A program made the position numbers and the translations under genes. Positions 51,254-60,995 of a stretch of DNA of 61,508 nt are shown piece after piece (within the stretch, counting starts at the first letter, position 1; every line of letters starts with the position of its first letter). The stretch covers positions 1 to 61,508 of the forward strand of contig DATGHU010000010.1 in the NCBI GenBank assembly GCA_035307765.1, in the 5' to 3' direction. The notes under the pieces are model-generated. The model searched no databases and was not told the DNA's origin. It saw only the letters and a list, made by a program, of their open reading frames with translations. The stretch comes from a bacterium (GTDB taxonomy: Bacteria; Sysuimicrobiota; Sysuimicrobiia; Sysuimicrobiales; Segetimicrobiaceae).

Positions 51254-53458
51254 CTAGTGCGGCACGACGCGCTCGACGTTGTAGACTTCCGGCACCCGGC
51301 CGATGCGCTGCATCACCGCGGTGAGTTGCGTGACATTCCCGATGTCCACGACGAGGTTGACGATGCCCACCTTGTCCTTCCGGACTCGGGCGTTCACCGA
51401 GACCACGTTCGTCTTCGTCTCGGTCACCGCAGCCAGGATGTCCTTGAGCAGGCCGACCCGGTCGAGCGCTTCGATCTCGACCTCCACCTGGTAGGTGCCG
51501 TCCGGTGAGGCCTCCCACTCCACCTCGACCAACCGCTCCGGCTGCCCCCGCAGGAACTGGATGTTCGGGCAGTCCGCCCGGTGAATGCTCACCCCGCGAC
51601 CGCGCGTGATGTACCCGAGCACGCGATCCCCCGGCAAGGGGCTGCAACACCGCCCAAACCGCATCAAGACGTTGTCGACCCCCCGCACCCGAATCCCGTG
51701 CGCGGTCTGGGACGGCGGCGACGCGGCCGTGGGGAGCGCCGGCGCCTCCTCCACGACGGGCCGCTCGCCGCGCAGGGCCTGCACCACCTGCAGGAGCGAG
51801 ACATCGCCGTTGCCCACCGCGGCCAAAAGCTCCTCCTCGTCGGGGAGCCCGAACTCGGCGGCGGCCTCGCGGAGCCGTTCCGGCCGAAGGGCGGCGACGC
51901 TCCCGAACCGGCGCAGTTCCTTCTCCAGGAGATCCTTGCCGCGCAGAATGTTTTCGTCGTGTCGCTCCCGCTTGAACCACTGGCGGATCTTCGTGCGGGC
52001 GTTGCTGGTCTGGACGAACGCCAGCCAGTCTCGGCTCGGGCCGGCGCTGCTCTTGTTGGTGGAGATCTCCACGATGTCCCCGGACTGCAGCCGGTGGCTC
52101 AGCGGGACCAAGCGTCCGTTCGCCTTCGCGCCCACGGTGTGGTAGCCGACATCGGTGTGAATGCGAAAGGCGAAGTCGATAGGGGTCGCCCCCGCGGGGA
52201 GGTCGATGACGTCGCCTTTTGGCGTAAAGACGAACACCTCGTTCTGAAACAGGTCGATCTTGACCGAGTGGACGAACTCGCGGGGATCCTGAAGGTCCTG
52301 GTGCCACTCCAGCAACTGTCGGAGCCACGAAAGCTTCTGCTCGAATCCGGGATCGGCCTTCTTGCCGCCCTCCTTGTACCGCCAGTGCGCGGCGATCCCG
52401 TTCTCGCCGGCGTGGTGCATCTCCGCCGTCCGGATCTGAATCTCCAGCGGCTGGCCCTCGCAGATCACCGCGGTGTGCAAGGATTGGTACCCGCTGGTCT
52501 TGGGGGCGGCGATGTAGTCGTCCACCTCGCCGGGGATCGGCGTCCACAGCGAGTGCACGACGCCGAGGGTCTCGTAGCACTCCCGGACATCGTTGACCAC
52601 CACCCGGATCGCCAGCCGATCGTAGATCCGGCCCACCCCTTGCCCTTGATATTTCGGCCGCTGCATCTTTTGGTAGATGCTGTAGACATGCTTCGGGCGT
52701 CCGGTGATGCGGCTCTGGTCCACGCGGATTCCCGCGCGGTTCAACTCGCGGTGGAGCGTCTCCACCACGCTGGCCAGCACCACCACCTTCTCCTGGCTGG
52801 CGCGCTCGAGTTCGCCGGCGATCTCCCGGTAGGCCTCCGGCTGCAGGACCGCGAACGCCCGGTCCTCCAACTCGCGCTTGATGCTCCCGATGCCGAGCCG
52901 TTCGGTCAACGGCGCGTAGATCTCCAAGGTCTCGTTCGCCGTGCGCTTCTGCTTCCACTCCGGGAGATACTCGATCGTGCGCAGGTTGTGGACGCGGTCG
53001 GCCAGCTTGATCAGGATGATCCGGATGTCGTTAGCCATCGCCAGGAACATCTTGCGGAGGTTCTCCGCCTGGCGCTCTTCCCGGCTCTTCCACTCGATCC
53101 GGCCGAGTTTGGTCACCCCGTCCACCAGCCCCGCGACCTCCGGGCCGAATTTGTCGCGGATCGCCTCGATCGTGTGCGCGGTGTCCTCGGGAACGTCGTG
53201 CAGGAGGGCCGCCGCGATCGTTACCGCGTCCAGGCGAAGGTCGGCGAGGAGCGACGCGACGGCGACACTGTGGTTGACGTACGGCTCACCGGAGGCACGG
53301 GTTTGGTCGGCGTGGGCCTCCTGCGCGAACAGGTAGGCCCGCCGGATCAGCTCCAGATCGGCGTGCGGCGTCAGCTGTTTGACACGGGCCAACAGCTGAA
53401 CGGCATCGGGGGGAAGGTTCTCCTCGGTGCTGCCCCGGGTGAGATGAAATCGCTTCAT
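51254..53458 (-). CDS. rsh: RelA/SpoT (Rsh) (p)ppGpp synthetase/hydrolase
   Basis: A 734-aa bifunctional-type stringent response enzyme. The N-terminal HD hydrolase has H63 and the H87-D88 pair with E91-D92 (HDVPEDT), complete for Mn-dependent ppGpp hydrolysis. The synthetase domain follows (RIYDRLAIRVVV; SGYQSLHTAV), then TGS (VFVFTPKGDVIDLPAG), a helical/zinc-finger region and an ACT domain (VGLLKDILAAVTETKTNV). The cysteine motif FGRCCSPLPGD is present. The ATG at 53458 begins before the first helix. Single Rsh genes are usual in Gram-positive bacteria. Confidence 0.95.
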   Translation of the reverse strand: MKRFHLTRGSTEENLPPDAVQLLARVKQLTPHADLELIRRAYLFAQEAHADQTRASGEPYVNHSVAVASLLADLRLDAVTIAAALLHDVPEDTAHTIEAIRDKFGPEVAGLVDGVTKLGRIEWKSREERQAENLRKMFLAMANDIRIILIKLADRVHNLRTIEYLPEWKQKRTANETLEIYAPLTERLGIGSIKRELEDRAFAVLQPEAYREIAGELERASQEKVVVLASVVETLHRELNRAGIRVDQSRITGRPKHVYSIYQKMQRPKYQGQGVGRIYDRLAIRVVVNDVRECYETLGVVHSLWTPIPGEVDDYIAAPKTSGYQSLHTAVICEGQPLEIQIRTAEMHHAGENGIAAHWRYKEGGKKADPGFEQKLSWLRQLLEWHQDLQDPREFVHSVKIDLFQNEVFVFTPKGDVIDLPAGATPIDFAFRIHTDVGYHTVGAKANGRLVPLSHRLQSGDIVEISTNKSSAGPSRDWLAFVQTSNARTKIRQWFKRERHDENILRGKDLLEKELRRFGSVAALRPERLREAAAEFGLPDEEELLAAVGNGDVSLLQVVQALRGERPVVEEAPALPTAASPPSQTAHGIRVRGVDNVLMRFGRCCSPLPGDRVLGYITRGRGVSIHRADCPNIQFLRGQPERLVEVEWEASPDGTYQVEVEIEALDRVGLLKDILAAVTETKTNVVSVNARVRKDKVGIVNLVVDIGNVTQLTAVMQRIGRVPEVYNVERVVPH

Positions 53459-53546
53459 CGCCGCCGTCCCGGCGCCCCCGGGCCGCTTGTTCGAGGGGCG
53501 GCCGGGCCTCGCCCGGTCCACGTCGCCAACCCGCAACCGCCGCCCA

Positions 53547-56500
53547 CTAGCCTGCGCCAGCCGCCCCGGCGGCGACCTGGAGCAACTCGAACCCCGTCGC
53601 GCGAACCGCCCAGCGCGCGAATGCGTCGAACGCCTCGCGCTCGCGCATCCCCTCCCGGAAGCGCAGCGACGCCCCGAGATCTCGCCGACCCACATCGAGC
53701 AGCTGCATCTCGAGTCGCGCGTCCACCATCTCCCGGGTCGCGAGCCCCGCCTCCTCGAAGATCACCGCCGCCGCGTCGACCGTCGCTGGGGTCAGGTGCG
53801 GCAGCGCACCGCTGAGCGCCGCCCACGTCGCGTCATCCGGCCAAGCGAGCGGTGCGTCACCGCGCCACCCTCGCAGCACCCGGTAGATCGCGGCCAGGAT
53901 CTCCCGGTCCGGGGCGCGGGCGGCCAACTCGCGGCGCCTCGCGTCAATCTCGTTCGTGCCGAAAAGCACCGTCAGCGCGAGCGGGCGCGTCTCGAACCCC
54001 ATCGAGCCAAGCGCCTCCGAGAATCGCGCCCGGTCCGGGGGAAGCGCGGCGATCATCACCTGGCGCACGTCCGCGGGGAGCATTTCTTCATCGAGCGCCG
54101 ACGTGGCCACCAGGATTCCCAACCGGCTCTCCTGGAAAGCATGCGCCACAATCTGGCGAACGCGCGCGGGAAGTCCACCGTGCAGGTACCCGACTTTCGA
54201 GGATCGATCGCGAGCGCGCTCGCGCAGGTGCCGCGCCAGACGCACGCACTCTGCCCTCCCGCCGGCATAAATGAGAGTCTTCTCGTCTCGGCTAAGGGCT
54301 TCCTCCATCACGCCGAGGGCCCCGGGGGTGTTGCGGCGATCGACCACCCGCAGGGCCGCTCTGAGGGCCGGATCGGAAATCACTTCCGCGCCCGGATAGA
54401 GGCGAGCCAGCGTGTCGCGCGGAGCGGGCGCGGTCACCGCCAGCACGGGCCGCCCACCGAACATTTCCGCGACCGCCCCCGTCTCCGCCGCCACCCCGTC
54501 CATCAGGACCGCGGAGACCCGCTCGGCGTGGCCCCCCACCCACCCGCCGGTCACGGCCTCGGCACTCGCCACAAGCACGTCCACCCCGCCGGCCCGAAGC
54601 GCCGCCGCGACCCGTTCGCGCTCGCGGAAGTCCTGGAATCCGTGGACGGACAACACCCGAAATCCCATGGCGCCCAGACGCGCGGTCATCTGGTCGGTCC
54701 GGTGGCGCACCTGCCGGCGGAGCGGCGCGATCAGGAGCGCGCAGCGCCCGTCCTGGGCGGTCAACGCCGCCGCGCCGGCGAGTGCGGTCGCCCAGCCCCG
54801 GCCCGGCGGGAGCGCGAGCACGACCGACCTCCCGGCCGCGATCGCCGCCAGCGCCTCGCGGTGTGGTGCCGGCAGCGGCCGCCCGCCGTTCAGGGAAGCG
54901 GGGAGCCGCTCTTGGATCGCCCGCGCCGAAGGCCGCCCCCGGACATCCCACCCCGCGGATCCGAGGTCGGGGTCGTCGCGTTCGAGAAAGATATTGACGC
55001 CGAGCGACCGGTCCCCGCCGCCGGTCACGGTCAGAACGGTGGCTCGATATCGCGCCCCGGCGTCGATGGACGGCGACAGACGACCGGCCAGCGGCGCCCG
55101 CAGGTATCCCAACTGCCGGCCATCGGGGGCCAGCACGCGGACGGCGTGCGGGTCGTGCTCGTTCCCCGGCTCCCTGACCAACTGCAACGGGTCACCGGGG
55201 CGCAGGGCGGCGATCGCCTCCTGCCGTCCGTCGAAGGTCACGCCGACGACTTTGGTGTAGAGCGCCGCCGCCTCCTCGACCCCGTCGCCTCGAGTCTCAT
55301 CGAGGTACTCCGCGGCGTGCTGGAAGAGGCGGTCGAGCAGGGCTCCGGTGTCGGTCAAGATCGATTCCGGATCCATTCCCGGCACGTCGAGGGCCTGCAC
55401 GCGGAGCCGGATCCGGCCGGGGACCAGCCGGTCCCGCTCCGGAACAAAGGCAAGGTCGATGGGAGCCTCGGTGAACAAGAGCAGTTCGCCGCGCGCCGCC
55501 ATCGCGAACCCGATCGCCTCCACGAGCGCATCTCCGTCCGTCACGTCCATCCTGAGGTGCTGCCCGCCGCCGACGAGCCGGCGGTTGACCGCCCGGACCC
55601 CGCGCGACGCCAGCAGCGGCTCGGGGTTTCCCGACCCAAAAGGCCCGAGACGTTCCAGCGCATCCACCAACGATGGGGTGACCTCGGACAACCTCACCTC
55701 CGCGTCGATGCGGAGCCGCGGGAGGATCGTCCATGCCGCGGCGCCTGCGGCGGCCCGCGCTTGGAAGGCCCGTCGAAACTCCGGCACCGCCTCCCGCGTC
55801 ACCGACAGGCCGGCCGCCATGGCGTGGCCGCCAAAGGCGAGCAGGTGTGGCCCGCACGCCCCGAGCGCCTCGGTCAGGTCGAAGCCCTCCACGCTGCGTG
55901 CGGACCCGCGGCCGGCGTCCCGATCGAGCGCGATCGCCACCACGGGGCGGCGGTAGCGCTCCGCCAGGCGACCGGCGACGAGTCCGACGACCCCCGGGTG
56001 CCACCCGTCGCCCGCCACCACGAACGCCGGCGCCCCGGCGTCCTCCTCGGCCTGAACGAGGGCCTCGGCGAGAACCCGCCCGAGCACGGCCTGCCGCTCG
56101 CGGTTGGTGGCGTCGAGGAGATCGGCGAGGGTACGTGCCTCTTGCGGGTCGTCGGTCAGCAGCAGCCGCAGGGCCGGCGATGGATCGCCGAGCCGTCCCG
56201 GCGCGTTGAGGCGCGGGCCCAACTGCCATCCCACGTGCCACGCATCCACATCGGCGATCCCCGCCACGCTGGCCAGGGCGCGGATCCCGGCCAGCGGTGC
56301 CGCCCGCATCTCCGCCAGTCCCGCGGCGGCCAACCGACGGTTGTCATCGAGCAGGGGAACGACGTCGGCGATCGTCCCGAGGGCGGCAAGCGAGACCAGG
56401 CCCGGCTGGAGCGGCGAGGCGGCGCCCAGATGCCGCCCGAGCGCCAGGATGAACGCAAACGCCAACCCCGCGGCACAGAAGGGAGCGGTGCCGGACCCCC

Positions 56501-57047
56501 GCGGCGGTGCCACGATCGTCGCCTCCGGCCGCTCGGCTGTGGGGACATGGTGGTCAAGGACCAGGACGTCGCATCCCAACGCCCGCGCCCGTCCCACCGA
56601 CTCCGTCGCGGTGATCCCGCAGTCCGCCGCGATCAGCACCTGCGCGCCCCGGGCCGCAAGGGCCTCGACCGCCCGCAGCCCAAGCCCGTAGCCGTCCTGG
56701 AACCGATGCGGGAGATACCATCCCGGGTCGCCGCCGAGCGCCCGCAGCCCGCGCACGAGGATCGCCGTGGCGGAGATGCCGTCGACGTCGTAGTCACCGT
56801 GAACGGCGATGGACTGGCCCGCCGCCAGCGCGAGCGCCACCCGCTCAACCGCGCCGGGCATCTCCGGGAGCGCCAGGGGATCGGACAGATCGTCCAAGCT
56901 GGGATGGAGAAACCGCCTGGCCGCTTCGACGGTCGTCACCCCCCGCCGGCGCAGCATCGCCGCAGCCAGGGGATGGAGATCCAGCGCGGCCGCAAGCGCG
57001 GCCGCCTCCGCGTCCTTCGGCTCTACGATCCAGCTCTCCACCGCCAT
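53547..57047 (-). CDS. recJ: RecJ exonuclease fused to a HIRAN domain and a helicase-like module
   Basis: A 1166-aa protein, about twice the length of a normal RecJ. Residues 1-585 are the single-strand 5'-3' exonuclease: DYDVDG (85-90), ADCGIT, LDHHVP (DHH motif), the DHHA1 segment GGHAMAAG (407-414) and an OB-like region. Residues 598-692 look like a HIRAN domain (VTFDGRQEAIAALRPGD; EPGNEHDPHAVRV). Residues 725-1040 resemble a superfamily 2 helicase with LPPGRG at the Walker A place, MDGV at the DEAD place and LHGGLPARVRQIV. The P-loop lacks GK[ST] and the DEAD box lacks the glutamate, so ATPase activity is doubtful. A C-terminal helical part ends it. A TATAAT box lies 9 bases before the ATG. 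Confidence 0.92.
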   Translation of the reverse strand: MAVESWIVEPKDAEAAALAAALDLHPLAAAMLRRRGVTTVEAARRFLHPSLDDLSDPLALPEMPGAVERVALALAAGQSIAVHGDYDVDGISATAILVRGLRALGGDPGWYLPHRFQDGYGLGLRAVEALAARGAQVLIAADCGITATESVGRARALGCDVLVLDHHVPTAERPEATIVAPPRGSGTAPFCAAGLAFAFILALGRHLGAASPLQPGLVSLAALGTIADVVPLLDDNRRLAAAGLAEMRAAPLAGIRALASVAGIADVDAWHVGWQLGPRLNAPGRLGDPSPALRLLLTDDPQEARTLADLLDATNRERQAVLGRVLAEALVQAEEDAGAPAFVVAGDGWHPGVVGLVAGRLAERYRRPVVAIALDRDAGRGSARSVEGFDLTEALGACGPHLLAFGGHAMAAGLSVTREAVPEFRRAFQARAAAGAAAWTILPRLRIDAEVRLSEVTPSLVDALERLGPFGSGNPEPLLASRGVRAVNRRLVGGGQHLRMDVTDGDALVEAIGFAMAARGELLLFTEAPIDLAFVPERDRLVPGRIRLRVQALDVPGMDPESILTDTGALLDRLFQHAAEYLDETRGDGVEEAAALYTKVVGVTFDGRQEAIAALRPGDPLQLVREPGNEHDPHAVRVLAPDGRQLGYLRAPLAGRLSPSIDAGARYRATVLTVTGGGDRSLGVNIFLERDDPDLGSAGWDVRGRPSARAIQERLPASLNGGRPLPAPHREALAAIAAGRSVVLALPPGRGWATALAGAAALTAQDGRCALLIAPLRRQVRHRTDQMTARLGAMGFRVLSVHGFQDFRERERVAAALRAGGVDVLVASAEAVTGGWVGGHAERVSAVLMDGVAAETGAVAEMFGGRPVLAVTAPAPRDTLARLYPGAEVISDPALRAALRVVDRRNTPGALGVMEEALSRDEKTLIYAGGRAECVRLARHLRERARDRSSKVGYLHGGLPARVRQIVAHAFQESRLGILVATSALDEEMLPADVRQVMIAALPPDRARFSEALGSMGFETRPLALTVLFGTNEIDARRRELAARAPDREILAAIYRVLRGWRGDAPLAWPDDATWAALSGALPHLTPATVDAAAVIFEEAGLATREMVDARLEMQLLDVGRRDLGASLRFREGMREREAFDAFARWAVRATGFELLQVAAGAAGAG

Positions 57048-57056
57048 CCTGGCATC

Positions 57057-57062
57057 ATTATA
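57057..57062 (-). promoter_or_regulatory. consensus -10 box next to the recJ start
   Basis: TATAAT on the minus strand, 9 bases before the recJ ATG (57047). There is no good -35 hexamer 16-18 bases upstream, so it is uncertain. No ribosome site fits in the space between it and the ATG, which would imply a leaderless transcript. Confidence 0.45.
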
Positions 57063-57103
57063 TCGCCCGTGGGAACCGGCAGGGCGGCGGAGCGCGGAGC
57101 GGG

Positions 57104-57433
57104 TCAGGGCAGTCTGCGGGTCTCCTCCAGCGGATTCGAAGGCGGGGGTGCGGTGACGAGCGACGACGCGGAGGGATGAGGGTCAAGGGGTTCGTGCGCG
57201 CGGACGCGGCCTTCCAGGGTGCGGATCTGCCGCGCCAGGCGGAAGTGATGTCCCAACGACCCCAGATAGGTCAGCAGCGCCCCGATCACCCCGGCCCCAA
57301 CGATGACCAGGGCCAGCGGACCGCTGTAGACCGTGACCTGCCAGAAGTTGACCGTGACCGTGCTGAGGTTGCTCAACGCGAAGACCGTGACCACCACCAG
57401 CAGGATGACCAGGAAGAGCAACGTCCGGCCCAT
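57104..57433 (-). CDS. lapA: LapA/DUF1049 family membrane protein
   Basis: A 109-aa protein with two transmembrane helices (about 4-22 and 40-62) and a cytoplasmic coiled tail (FRLARQIRTLEGRVRAHEP). The short loop VTVNFWQVTVYSGPLALV between helices and the ALSNLSTVTVNFW stretch match LapA/DUF1049 (YrvD-like). In E. coli LapA takes part in LPS assembly; Gram-positive relatives are uncharacterised. It begins 9 bases after secF and ends 56 bases before recJ, an order secF-lapA-recJ also seen in other bacteria. Confidence 0.85.
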   Translation of the reverse strand: MGRTLLFLVILLVVVTVFALSNLSTVTVNFWQVTVYSGPLALVIVGAGVIGALLTYLGSLGHHFRLARQIRTLEGRVRAHEPLDPHPSASSLVTAPPPSNPLEETRRLP

Positions 57434-57442
57434 CGGTCCCGT

Positions 57443-58513
57443 CTACCGTCGCCGCCGGCTGCCCTTGCGCCGCCGCGAGGCGCCCTGTCCGGGCGCCCCC
57501 GACCCGGTGCCCGATGGGGCGGGAGCCACCGCCTCGCCGTCCTCGGTGGTGACCTGAGCGGCGCCGAGGCCGGAGGTCCGATCGGAGGCGCGCGCGGTTC
57601 GGGCCTCGGCCCCCCTCGCTCCCCGCCGCCGTTCGGTCCAGTTGCGCCAGTCCACCAGGATCGGGCTCGCGTTGAAGATCGACGAATACCCCCCGGTGAT
57701 GATGCTCACCACCAGCCCGAAGGCGACGTCGCGGATCGTCTCGCCCCCAAAGATGTAGACCGCCCCGATCGCCAGCACCGCGGTCATCGCGGTGTTGATG
57801 GACCGGACGATGGCTTCCAACACGCTGCGGTTCACCAAGTGCTCGAAGGGCTCGCGGGTCCGCATCGCCAGGTTCTCGCGGATCCGGTCGAAGATGACGA
57901 TCGTGTCGTTGATCGAATACCCGGCGACGGTGAGCAGCACCGCGAGGAAGCTGGCGTTGACCTCCCGCTGGGTCAGCGCGAACGCGCCGACCACCACCAG
58001 GAGATCGTGAAGCAGCGCGATGTCCGCCGCGATGGCGAACCGAACGGAGTGGAAGCGGATGGAAATGAACACCACCTGCAGGATCAATCCAATCGCCACA
58101 CCGAAAATCGCGACGTTGCGGAGTTCGGCGCCGATCTCGGGGCCGACCGTGTCCACGCGCAGCATCTTCGCGCTGGGGAACTTGGCGGTCACCGCCTCGA
58201 TCACGGCGGTGGTCTGCTGCGGCGAGAGCGGGCGGGTGCGGATGATCACTTGGTTGTCGCCGGACCGCTGGATGATCGCGTCCCCGAGCTGAAACCCGTT
58301 CATGATGCTCCGGATGTCCCCGACGGCGAACGGCTGCGTGATCCGCAATTCGAGCGAGTTGCCCCCGGTGAAGTCAACCCCCCAGTTCAGCGCGTGATGG
58401 TCGTTGACGTGATGGACGTACAGCGCGACCAGACCGGGGATGATCACCGCCAGCGACAGCGCGTACCACCACCGCCGCCGGCCGATCAGGTTGAAGGTGC
58501 CCGACGTCGCCAT
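57443..58513 (-). CDS. secF: protein translocase subunit SecF
   Basis: Works with SecD and SecYEG to drive late protein export using the proton motive force. The 356-aa protein has six transmembrane helices in the RND pattern, the D1 loop GVDFTGGNSLELRI and the helix motif segments SINDTIVIFDRIREN. The last 70 residues, beginning RRRGARGAEART, are low-complexity and basic. Follows secD by 3 bases and precedes lapA by 9. Confidence 0.96.
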   Translation of the reverse strand: MATSGTFNLIGRRRWWYALSLAVIIPGLVALYVHHVNDHHALNWGVDFTGGNSLELRITQPFAVGDIRSIMNGFQLGDAIIQRSGDNQVIIRTRPLSPQQTTAVIEAVTAKFPSAKMLRVDTVGPEIGAELRNVAIFGVAIGLILQVVFISIRFHSVRFAIAADIALLHDLLVVVGAFALTQREVNASFLAVLLTVAGYSINDTIVIFDRIRENLAMRTREPFEHLVNRSVLEAIVRSINTAMTAVLAIGAVYIFGGETIRDVAFGLVVSIITGGYSSIFNASPILVDWRNWTERRRGARGAEARTARASDRTSGLGAAQVTTEDGEAVAPAPSGTGSGAPGQGASRRRKGSRRRR

Positions 58514-58516
58514 CGC

Positions 58517-59887
58517 CTAGCCTCCCGCCGCCGGCGCCGTCTCCCGCCGCCGGCCCGTGGTGGCGATGTTCTCGATCCACTTCGCCGCCGACGAGTCGAG
58601 CGCGAGATCGACGAAAACCCGGGTGACGACGATGGCGGTGAAGATGCTGGTCAGGATCCCCAACATCAAGGTAACGGCGAACCCGCGGACCGGCCCCGTG
58701 CCGAGCCAGAGCAGCACCGCCGCTCCGATCAGCGTGGTGGTATTCGAATCGAAAATGGTGACGATGGCCCGGCTCCAGCCCGTGCCGATCGCGGCGCGAA
58801 GGGTCTTCCCTCCCCGCAACTCCTCCTTCACCTTCTCGAAGATGATCACGTTGGCGTCCACCGCCACCCCGAGCGAGAGGATAAACCCGGCGATCCCCGG
58901 CAGGGTGAGTGTGGCCCCGATCAACGTCAGCAGCGCGAACAGGATGAGGGTGTAGACGCCGAGCGCCAGATCCGCCAGCAACCCGGGGAACCGGTAGTAC
59001 AGCGCCATGAAGAGGGCCACCATCACGACCGCGATGTAGCCGGCGCGCATGCTCAGGTCGATCGAGTCACGCCCCAAGAGCGGGCCGACCGTTCGGTTCT
59101 CGACCACCTCGACCGGCACCGGGAGCGCGCCGGCGCGCAGGAGGACCGCCAGGTCTCGCGCCGACTCCAGAGTGAATCCGCCCTGGATGATCCCCCGCCC
59201 GCCGGGGATCGCGCTGTTGATCACCGGCGAGCTGATCACGCGATTGTCGAGCACAATCGTCAGATACTTCCCGATATTCTTGGTGGTGTAATCCTCAAAC
59301 TGCTTCGCGGCGGAGCTCTTCAGGGTGAAGCCGACGATCGGCGCGCCGAACTGATCGAATTGCTCCTGCGCCGTGACGAGGTCCGCGCCGGTGATCAGCA
59401 CTTTCTTCGTGACCTTGTAGATCCGCTTGGTGGCCGGGTCCACCGCCGTCTCGTTGTCCGTCCACCCGGTCCCCGCGGGCAGCGAGGTCGTGGCCGTGTC
59501 GACAAACTCGAGGAGCGCGGTCTTGCCGATCAACTCGATCGCCCGCTGCGGGTTCTCGATCCCCGGCAACTCCGCGACGATCCGATCCCTCCCCTGGCGC
59601 GTGATCGCCGGCTCGGCCACGCCCAACTGGTCGATGCGGTTGCGGATCACGCGGAGCACCGCGTCCATCGCGTCGTTGGTGATCGGGGTCTGGGCGGTCG
59701 GCTTCGCCTGCAGCACGATGTGGCTCCCGCCGCGGAGATCCAATCCCAAGTTGAGGTGCAACTGCGGGGCCTGAAACGTCGGATTGGTCGGTCCCCCGGG
59801 GAACACCACCGGCTCGAACGTGATCAGAAACGCCGCCACCGCGATCAGGATGACCCCGAGAAGCCGAACCGGATGACTGAGTCTCAC
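58517..59887 (-). CDS. secD: protein translocase subunit SecD
   Basis: A 456-aa SecD, first gene of the secDF operon. D1 begins LGLDLRGGSHIVLQ; the periplasmic P1 region is shorter than in E. coli and typical for Gram-positive-type SecD. Six helices include the motif segments in SLGVAVDANVIIFEKVKEEL and RAGYIAVVMVALFMALYYRFPG. The ATG at 59887 is served by a strong consensus promoter upstream. Confidence 0.96.
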   Translation of the reverse strand: MRLSHPVRLLGVILIAVAAFLITFEPVVFPGGPTNPTFQAPQLHLNLGLDLRGGSHIVLQAKPTAQTPITNDAMDAVLRVIRNRIDQLGVAEPAITRQGRDRIVAELPGIENPQRAIELIGKTALLEFVDTATTSLPAGTGWTDNETAVDPATKRIYKVTKKVLITGADLVTAQEQFDQFGAPIVGFTLKSSAAKQFEDYTTKNIGKYLTIVLDNRVISSPVINSAIPGGRGIIQGGFTLESARDLAVLLRAGALPVPVEVVENRTVGPLLGRDSIDLSMRAGYIAVVMVALFMALYYRFPGLLADLALGVYTLILFALLTLIGATLTLPGIAGFILSLGVAVDANVIIFEKVKEELRGGKTLRAAIGTGWSRAIVTIFDSNTTTLIGAAVLLWLGTGPVRGFAVTLMLGILTSIFTAIVVTRVFVDLALDSSAAKWIENIATTGRRRETAPAAGG

Positions 59888-60077: not shown

Positions 60078-60995
60078 CTACGCCGTCGACAGGGGCGGAC
60101 GGAACGGGTCGCGACGGGCGGTCTGGCGGCCCCCGGGGAGGTCCCCCTCGTGCCCCGGCGCGGGCCGGTAGTGCCCCTCGAAGAACCGAAGGGCGCCCTC
60201 GTTGAGCAGATGATAGTAGGTGGAAAAGGTGCGCCGCGCCTCGCCCCCGCTCCACCGCTCGGGCAAGAGCTCCTGCGGGAGCCCGGGGTCGATGAACAGG
60301 AACTTCCGAAACGCGTGCACGAGCCGAGTCTTCTCCGCGAAGCAGGTGGCATCGGATGGCGGATCCCCCGCGGGCGGTCCGCCGGACTCCCCCGAGCCCG
60401 CGCTCCGATACCGGTCGAGGCGCGGCTGCCACTCCGCCACGAATCCCCCGTACGCGGCATCGATCGCAGGCAGGTCCCAGTAACGCGTGGCCAGCCGGTC
60501 ATCGGCGGTCGGCCCGTCGTGGCTCGCCGTGAACGTCTCGACCCCGCCGCTCAACCCGTACCGCTCCTCCAGGGCCACGGTCCGGTCGAGCAGATCGTTG
60601 GGGGTGAGGTAGATGCCCCGGGAGAGCGGAGCAAACCCCATCCAGGTCAGCTCACGGCGGAGGCGCTCCCGCCCCTCCCGGTCCCGCCCGGGGGCGGCGA
60701 CGACCAGGATCCGCCAGCGTCCGTCCCAGGGTTCCGGATGCAGCTTGAAGATCCGCTGCGCCGCTTCGTCGATCCGCTCGCGCCCCCGCTCGGAGAGCGA
60801 GTAGTAGCTGGCCCGTCCGTACCTGATCGGCACAAGCCAGCCCTGCCGGGTCATGCGCGAGACGGCCGCGCGCACCGCCGATGAGGTGAATCCCAGTTCG
60901 GCCAGCAGGGCGATCATGCTGCCCACCCAAATCGTGTTCCCATAGTGGCGGACGTAGTCGCCGTAGAGCGTGAACAGCGTCGACCGGGCCTGCAT
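60078..60995 (-). CDS. paaX: PaaX family transcriptional repressor
   Basis: A 305-aa regulator with an N-terminal winged helix (FTLYGDYVRHYGNTIWVGS; GFTSSAVRAAVSRMTRQGWL), a central GRASYYSLSERGRERI linker and the PaaX dimer/sensor domain (GRWRILVVAAPGRDREGR; GFAPLSRGIYLTPND). PaaX represses phenylacetate catabolic genes and is released by phenylacetyl-CoA. No paa operon sits next to it, so its targets are unknown here. The 262 bases upstream, before the IS110 transposase end, may contain its promoter; a TTGACA occurs there without a matching -10. Confidence 0.88.
   Translation of the reverse strand: MQARSTLFTLYGDYVRHYGNTIWVGSMIALLAELGFTSSAVRAAVSRMTRQGWLVPIRYGRASYYSLSERGRERIDEAAQRIFKLHPEPWDGRWRILVVAAPGRDREGRERLRRELTWMGFAPLSRGIYLTPNDLLDRTVALEERYGLSGGVETFTASHDGPTADDRLATRYWDLPAIDAAYGGFVAEWQPRLDRYRSAGSGESGGPPAGDPPSDATCFAEKTRLVHAFRKFLFIDPGLPQELLPERWSGGEARRTFSTYYHLLNEGALRFFEGHYRPAPGHEGDLPGGRQTARRDPFRPPLSTA

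Follow-up and report, generated by a model that had tools for sequence, protein, structure and literature searches.

In textbook accounts, end resection in the RecF pathway is the joint work of RecQ and RecJ, and their coupling on DNA is debated; in E. coli and Deinococcus they divide the labour at blunt and 3′-overhang ends. RecC and AddB keep dead helicase folds as DNA readers in resection enzymes, and the HIRAN domain of HLTF binds 3′ ends of single-stranded DNA. Hef is a helicase–nuclease fusion, XPF combines a dead helicase with a live nuclease, and FANCM has a live helicase and has lost its nuclease activity. According to PMC4846377, which cites Morimatsu and Kowalczykowski (2014), RecJ alone degrades 5′-tailed DNA, while blunt and 3′-overhang ends require RecQ. 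RecJ of Deinococcus radiodurans (DrRecJ) and of Thermus has a core of DHH, DHHA1 and oligonucleotide-binding (OB) domains, followed by an extra C-terminal module, domain IV, which cells require in vivo (PMC4663267, PMC4846377). Here we describe a recJ gene in a 61,508-nucleotide stretch of the Sysuimicrobiota assembly GCA_035307765.1 (contig DATGHU010000010.1; the whole stretch is called the window below). Its product shares this core and its catalytic residues and likewise carries an extra C-terminal module. Unlike domain IV, which had no defined homologue by HHpred (PMC4663267), the module consists of a HIRAN domain and a RecQ-type pseudo-helicase. We consider it probable that this RecJ descended from a one-chain RecJ–HIRAN–RecQ resection machine that lost its motor in a single event, after which the tail acted as an end-binding scaffold for RecJ.

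A preliminary description of the locus had placed HIRAN at residues 598–692 behind an exonuclease region that looked active, followed by a superfamily 2 (SF2) helicase-like module at 725–1040 with a degenerate P-loop and DEAD box. It had proposed structure prediction and a search for the same three-part architecture, had named a frameshift or gene-joining error among the findings that would overturn it, and knew of no described system of this kind. In agreement with the last point, our literature search found no paper joining HIRAN and RecJ and none on a RecJ–RecQ fusion, which is weak evidence of absence as most subscription papers lay outside its scope. The parts of the gene are the following:

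53547–57047, minus strand: whole RecJ–HIRAN–pseudo-RecQ gene, 1166 amino acids (aa), ATG at 57047, one open frame.
55413–57047, minus strand: RecJ 5′–3′ exonuclease core, residues 1–545, active-site residues intact (TIGR00644; alignment to DrRecJ 5f54).
56373–56810, minus strand: DHH domain, residues 80–225 (PF01368, E 1.8e-16).
55752–56024, minus strand: DHHA1 domain, residues 342–432 (PF02272, E 3.2e-15).
55431–55709, minus strand: RecJ OB fold, residues 447–539 (PF17768, RecJ_OB, E 1e-20).
54978–55262, minus strand: HIRAN domain, residues 596–690, with the RxPxNxxDxxA signature of HLTF HIRAN (N629, D632) (PF08797).
54408–54905, minus strand: pseudo-RecA1 lobe of a RecQ-like helicase, residues 715–880 (AlphaFold2 models; Foldseek to the RecQ family).
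54789–54809, minus strand: ruined motif I, PPGRGWA, residues 747–753 (GTGRGKS in motor-intact relatives).
54495–54506, minus strand: ruined motif II, LMDG, residues 848–851, with the loop after it shortened (VVDE[AS]HH in motor-intact relatives).
54024–54407, minus strand: pseudo-RecA2 lobe, residues 881–1008, YxHGGLPxRxR segment retained (PF00271, E 7e-11).
53985–54020, minus strand: ruined motif VI, SEALGSMGFETR, residues 1010–1021, both Arg gone (S1015, F1018) (NQQxGRxGRDG in motor-intact relatives).
53688–53915, minus strand: winged-helix-like helical and two-strand C-terminal segment, residues 1045–1120 (DSSP of the models; assigned by inspection).

The protein scored 444.2 bits against TIGR00644, the NCBIfam recJ equivalog (cut-off 396.9, E 5e-133), and is the sole RecJ of its genome. 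HIRAN was matched by Pfam at residues 596–679 (E 2.9e-13, 49.9 bits versus a cut-off of 24.7), so the domain lies where it had been predicted. Helicase_C was matched at 918–1007 (E 7e-11), and DEAD at 730–834 stayed below threshold (18.3 bits versus 26). A frameshift, chimera or gene-joining error was ruled out by the unbroken arrangement in more than 30 independent genomes with 42–69% identity. An antisense open frame of 1230 aa (53487–57179, plus strand) spans the whole recJ and is longer than the true gene; it is a spurious high-GC artefact, apt to mislead gene callers.

The metal ligands of D. radiodurans RecJ are Asp79, 81, 83, 135 and 223 together with His159, and its phosphate is bound by Ser371/Arg373 (PMC4846377). 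Alignment with this structure (5f54) showed that all ligands are kept in the window protein (DYDVDG at 85/87/89, D142, H166 and the Asp of GTIADV) and that S382/R384 align with the phosphate-binding pair. Across the phylum the nuclease motifs did not vary wherever the N-terminus was present. As the full set of ligands is there, the window nuclease is predicted from these residues to be active, in line with the first impression of the region.

To classify the tail, we compared its profile and predicted structure with known helicases. A profile of the phylum tails retrieved RecQ structures first from the PDB (4tmu, E 1.5e-22; RecQ4; E. coli RecQ 1oyw) and also matched the HIRAN of HLTF (E 1.2e-8). 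AlphaFold2 gave a whole-protein model with a predicted local distance difference test score (pLDDT) of 87.3 and a predicted template modelling score (pTM) of 0.65, and a tail model with values of 87.8 and 0.84. Foldseek assigned the model core to RecJ structures and the tail to RECQL5, RecQ, WRN and BLM. Template modelling scores to RecQ structures were moderate, up to about 0.6 when scored by target, which is probably explained by lobe orientation and extra domains. The tail profile and Foldseek thus led us to reject a generic DEAD/SNF2 origin in favour of RecQ; the coordinates and helicase fold of the proposed SF2 module stand, and its generic assignment is replaced. Scores of the window protein stayed below the cut-offs of both recQ_fam (22.1 bits versus 219.8) and NCBIfam recQ (33.6 bits versus 640.2). 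The motor-intact fusions described below reached 160–210 bits against recQ_fam and also remained just below its curated cut-off of 219.8; RecQ was their best helicase model. The RecQ zinc-binding domain (PF16124) was matched neither in the window protein nor in the motor-intact relatives. The tail therefore shares with E. coli RecQ, RECQL5, WRN and BLM the two RecA lobes of RecQ-type fold and differs in the loss of every catalytic motif, in the missing zinc-binding match and in the HIRAN domain that precedes the motor. It is a pseudo-helicase of RecQ type, not filed as a RecQ helicase because motifs I, II and VI are ruined.

Homologues were collected by a scan of genome contigs, and residues were counted per alignment column in 30 sequences from the phylum and 18 from outside. 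The search for the three-part architecture was productive: it occurs across the phylum, and full-length RecJ–HIRAN–RecQ homologues with intact motors were found in Bacillota (Thermincola, Orenia, Frackibacter, Peptococcaceae and other Clostridia) and Coriobacteriia, with the tail also present in Eremiobacterota. About 25 of 299 sampled Bacillota genomes carry the fusion, a sample that includes genomes already in the homologue set, so that the true rate is lower. These relatives keep motifs I (GTGRGKS), Ia (YPLRALVNDQ), II (VVDE[AS]HH), III (TATA), V (TSAFGEGIDIPD) and VI (NQQxGRxGRDG); apart from Ia, each was present in 18/18 sampled sequences, with DE[AS]HH counted for motif II. Many also contain an HRPxY element resembling the aromatic-rich loop of RecQ. 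In the window protein, GTGRGKS is replaced by PPGRGWA, DE[AS]HH by DGVAA and GRxGRDG by GSMGFET, the last adding motif VI to the degeneration noticed earlier in the P-loop and DEAD box. The P-loop Lys and the first Arg of motif VI were each found in 18/18 sequences outside the phylum versus 0/30 inside. The loss of all ATPase motifs is phylum-wide, and an oddity of the window genome alone was hence ruled out. We also considered a degenerate motor that serves as a non-canonical switch, binding nucleotide without hydrolysis. In many members a GPGRG stretch is still reminiscent of a glycine-rich loop, but several have no glycine loop at all; as the motif positions also conserve no Lys, Ser/Thr, DExH Glu or Arg finger within the phylum, such a switch is very improbable.

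The phylum sample comprised 43 genomes of CSP1-3/Sysuimicrobiota, 28 of them good (completeness of 90% or more, contamination of 5% or less); with a single class and order in the phylum, searches at class and at phylum level return an identical set. Among the named loci are "Armatimonadetes bacterium CSP1-3" (classed as Candidatus Sysuimicrobiota) and ANGP1 genomes. The RecJ tail (profile A1) was present in 42 of the 43 genomes and in 28/28 good ones, which excludes a sequencing error. HIRAN (PF08797) exceeded its cut-off in 41/43 genomes, once per genome and inside the RecJ frame, with a second, short match in one genome. RecQ above cut-off was detected in 1/43 genomes versus 10/14 control genomes, and none of the 43 was found to encode a separate active HIRAN–RecQ. 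This whole uncultured phylum thus lives nearly without RecQ. The only true RecQ (L121, genome G005) follows a DinG/XPD-type Helicase_C_2 domain within one fused open frame of 1800 aa. Proteins with a RecB-type PD-(D/E)XK nuclease domain occur in 43/43 genomes, many in frames of about 1000–1100 aa (G000:C44, G000:C50), and are candidates for alternative resection enzymes or helicase–nucleases.

The phylum formed one clade in both the nuclease-core tree and the helicase tree, with a Shimodaira–Hasegawa-like approximate likelihood-ratio test (SH-aLRT) value of 100 in each. The fusion is fixed across the phylum and probably descends from a motor-intact version, which survives in Bacillota and Coriobacteriia and, lacking the RecJ part, in Eremiobacterota. 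In close within-phylum pairs, the ratio of nonsynonymous to synonymous substitution rates (dN/dS) was 0.13–0.26 for the RecJ core and 0.15–0.45 for the pseudo-helicase lobes, the latter indicating that purifying selection on the pseudo-motor continues. In five of seven pairs HIRAN gave 0.04–0.12, against 0.22 in L008/L011 and 0.59 in L145/L146, and it is usually the most constrained domain of the chain. At matched core identity of 45–55%, RecA1 identity was 26% within the phylum versus 55% among motor-intact forms, and HIRAN identity 57% versus 53%. Constraint was therefore lifted from the motor but retained on HIRAN. The L145/L146 pair (genomes G022 and G019) belongs to a family, f4, whose members of 1109–1126 aa have deleted strand one of HIRAN and show weak constraint on the domain, which suggests its secondary erosion.

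These values bear on two further explanations of the tail. It could be mainly a partner-docking, nuclease-controlling module resembling domain IV of Deinococcus RecJ (which interacts with HerA and SSB), with DNA-end binding secondary. The tail follows the OB fold, where DrRecJ has its C-terminal domain; loss of that domain lowers activity and leaves the protein without function in vivo (PMC4663267), and protein binding would not need a live motor. However, the best-conserved domain is usually HIRAN, which is DNA-binding in HLTF, rather than the pseudo-helicase surface, and a RecA1 lobe at 26% identity has drifted further than is usual for partner interfaces; we regard docking as an unlikely main function. 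Alternatively, the tail might be a slow relic, its motor lost because of takeover by another helicase and the pseudo-helicase staying because truncation is costly or because the C-terminus stabilises the fold. The relaxed RecA1 lobe (dN/dS up to 0.45), the shrinking f4 members and two Bacillota lineages that pair motor decay with HIRAN loss (L164, L165) would fit. Against this, frames are full-length and stop-free across the phylum (28/28 good genomes), dN/dS of the pseudo-motor lies well below 1, and hardly any variation is seen in the YxHGGLPxRxR segment or at the C-terminal R/E positions. We judge the relic somewhat less likely still than docking.

For HIRAN, residues of the signature were followed across the phylum. 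The Arg, Asp and Ala positions are kept in 30/30 sequences; N629 is retained in 28/30 and D632 in 30/30, and the aromatic residue beside them is not conserved. The HLTF HIRAN segment RDPNNPYDKNAIKV aligns with REPGNEHDPHAVRV of the window protein. From the HLTF alignment, we take N91 and D94 of HLTF to be the probable counterparts of N629 and D632. Numbering of the pocket was not found in PMC4666394. The setting of the domain differs, as HLTF (like Rad5) joins HIRAN to an SNF2 translocase and a RING domain, while the window HIRAN sits between RecJ and RecQ.

We return to the resection machine with a dead motor. In its motor-intact form, HIRAN would grip the 3′-ended strand, the RecQ motor would unwind DNA from the gripped strand, and RecJ would trim the freed 5′ strand. 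In the window phylum, a single death of the ATPase motor would date to the last common ancestor or earlier. HIRAN and the pseudo-helicase, still folded, would have been retained and serve without ATP as a scaffold that binds ends or junctions and positions RecJ, with unwinding supplied in trans by another helicase. The data are consistent with the dead helicase being a scaffold, as the preliminary description had suggested. Several observations weigh against this history. No part evolves faster than the pseudo-RecA1 lobe, as would be expected of slow decay no less than of a scaffold, and the HIRAN deletion and weak constraint in f4 indicate that some members can dispense with HIRAN. The Tyr beside the conserved HIRAN Asp is His in the window protein and variable in the phylum, and 3′-end specificity is known for HLTF and extended to the RecJ fusions by analogy. 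Finally, the gene trees appear to back one motor loss and leave its exact timing unfixed. More broadly, we tentatively propose, with less assurance than for the window protein itself, a one-polypeptide RecQ–RecJ resectosome with a HIRAN 3′-end sensor, which at least one phylum would have made into an ATP-independent end-sensing nuclease, and from which other lineages would have dropped RecJ and retained the helicase, or separated the two. Such a natural fusion would suggest that RecQ and RecJ act as one unit and hints at which end is gripped, namely the 3′ end by HIRAN. The phylum-wide dead motor represents a natural separation of function: the end-binding domain is conserved after unwinding has gone, so its role is directly testable. 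If true, this would be a bacterial counterpart of the Hef/XPF/FANCM story, a parallel history with an unrelated nuclease (ERCC4 versus DHH) and helicase subfamily. RecC and AddB differ in that they have SF1 folds, are separate subunits and serve Chi recognition.

Further variants of the architecture were observed outside the phylum. In Bacillota, L164 (genome G095) is a RecJ that has lost HIRAN and whose RecQ motor is ruined, an independent pseudo-helicase. Genome G224 encodes a RecJ tail without HIRAN and motor residues (L165) and a separate, motor-intact HIRAN–RecQ (L166), a split of the same machine. The mirror-image loss occurs in one Eremiobacterota genome, where a motor-intact HIRAN–RecQ without the RecJ part directly follows secD–secF (L090, 4719–6866); RecJ had no match in that genome. 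In L168 (genome G279), a RecJ fusion with an intact RecQ motor, a low-complexity linker rich in Gly, Ala, Arg and Glu seems to replace HIRAN. A Clostridia protein of 773 aa (L103, 3198–5516) contains HIRAN at 603–685 and no other Pfam domain.

The neighbourhood of the window gene comprises:

57104–57433, minus strand: LapA-domain small membrane protein, just upstream of recJ (PF06305).
57443–59887, minus strand: secF and secD, upstream, conserved recJ neighbourhood (PF02355, PF22599).
51254–53695, minus strand: RelA/SpoT homologue, downstream, conserved recJ neighbourhood, true start probably near 53455 (PF04607, PF13328).

The motor-intact fusions of Bacillota and Coriobacteriia lie in this recJ–relA neighbourhood too. 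Gene order in relatives is secF–recJ–relA (Thermincola) or recJ–apt–relA–dtd (Frackibacter), and the shared recJ–relA order identifies the fusion genes as orthologous housekeeping recJ. An anti-phage defence gene of the DpdF/PsyrT type was rejected, since PADLOC matches cover the helicase lobes only and the secD–secF–recJ–relA locus is a housekeeping one. Annotation pipelines label the fusion proteins plain RecJ. A PaaX-family regulator (60078–60995, minus strand) adjoins secD.

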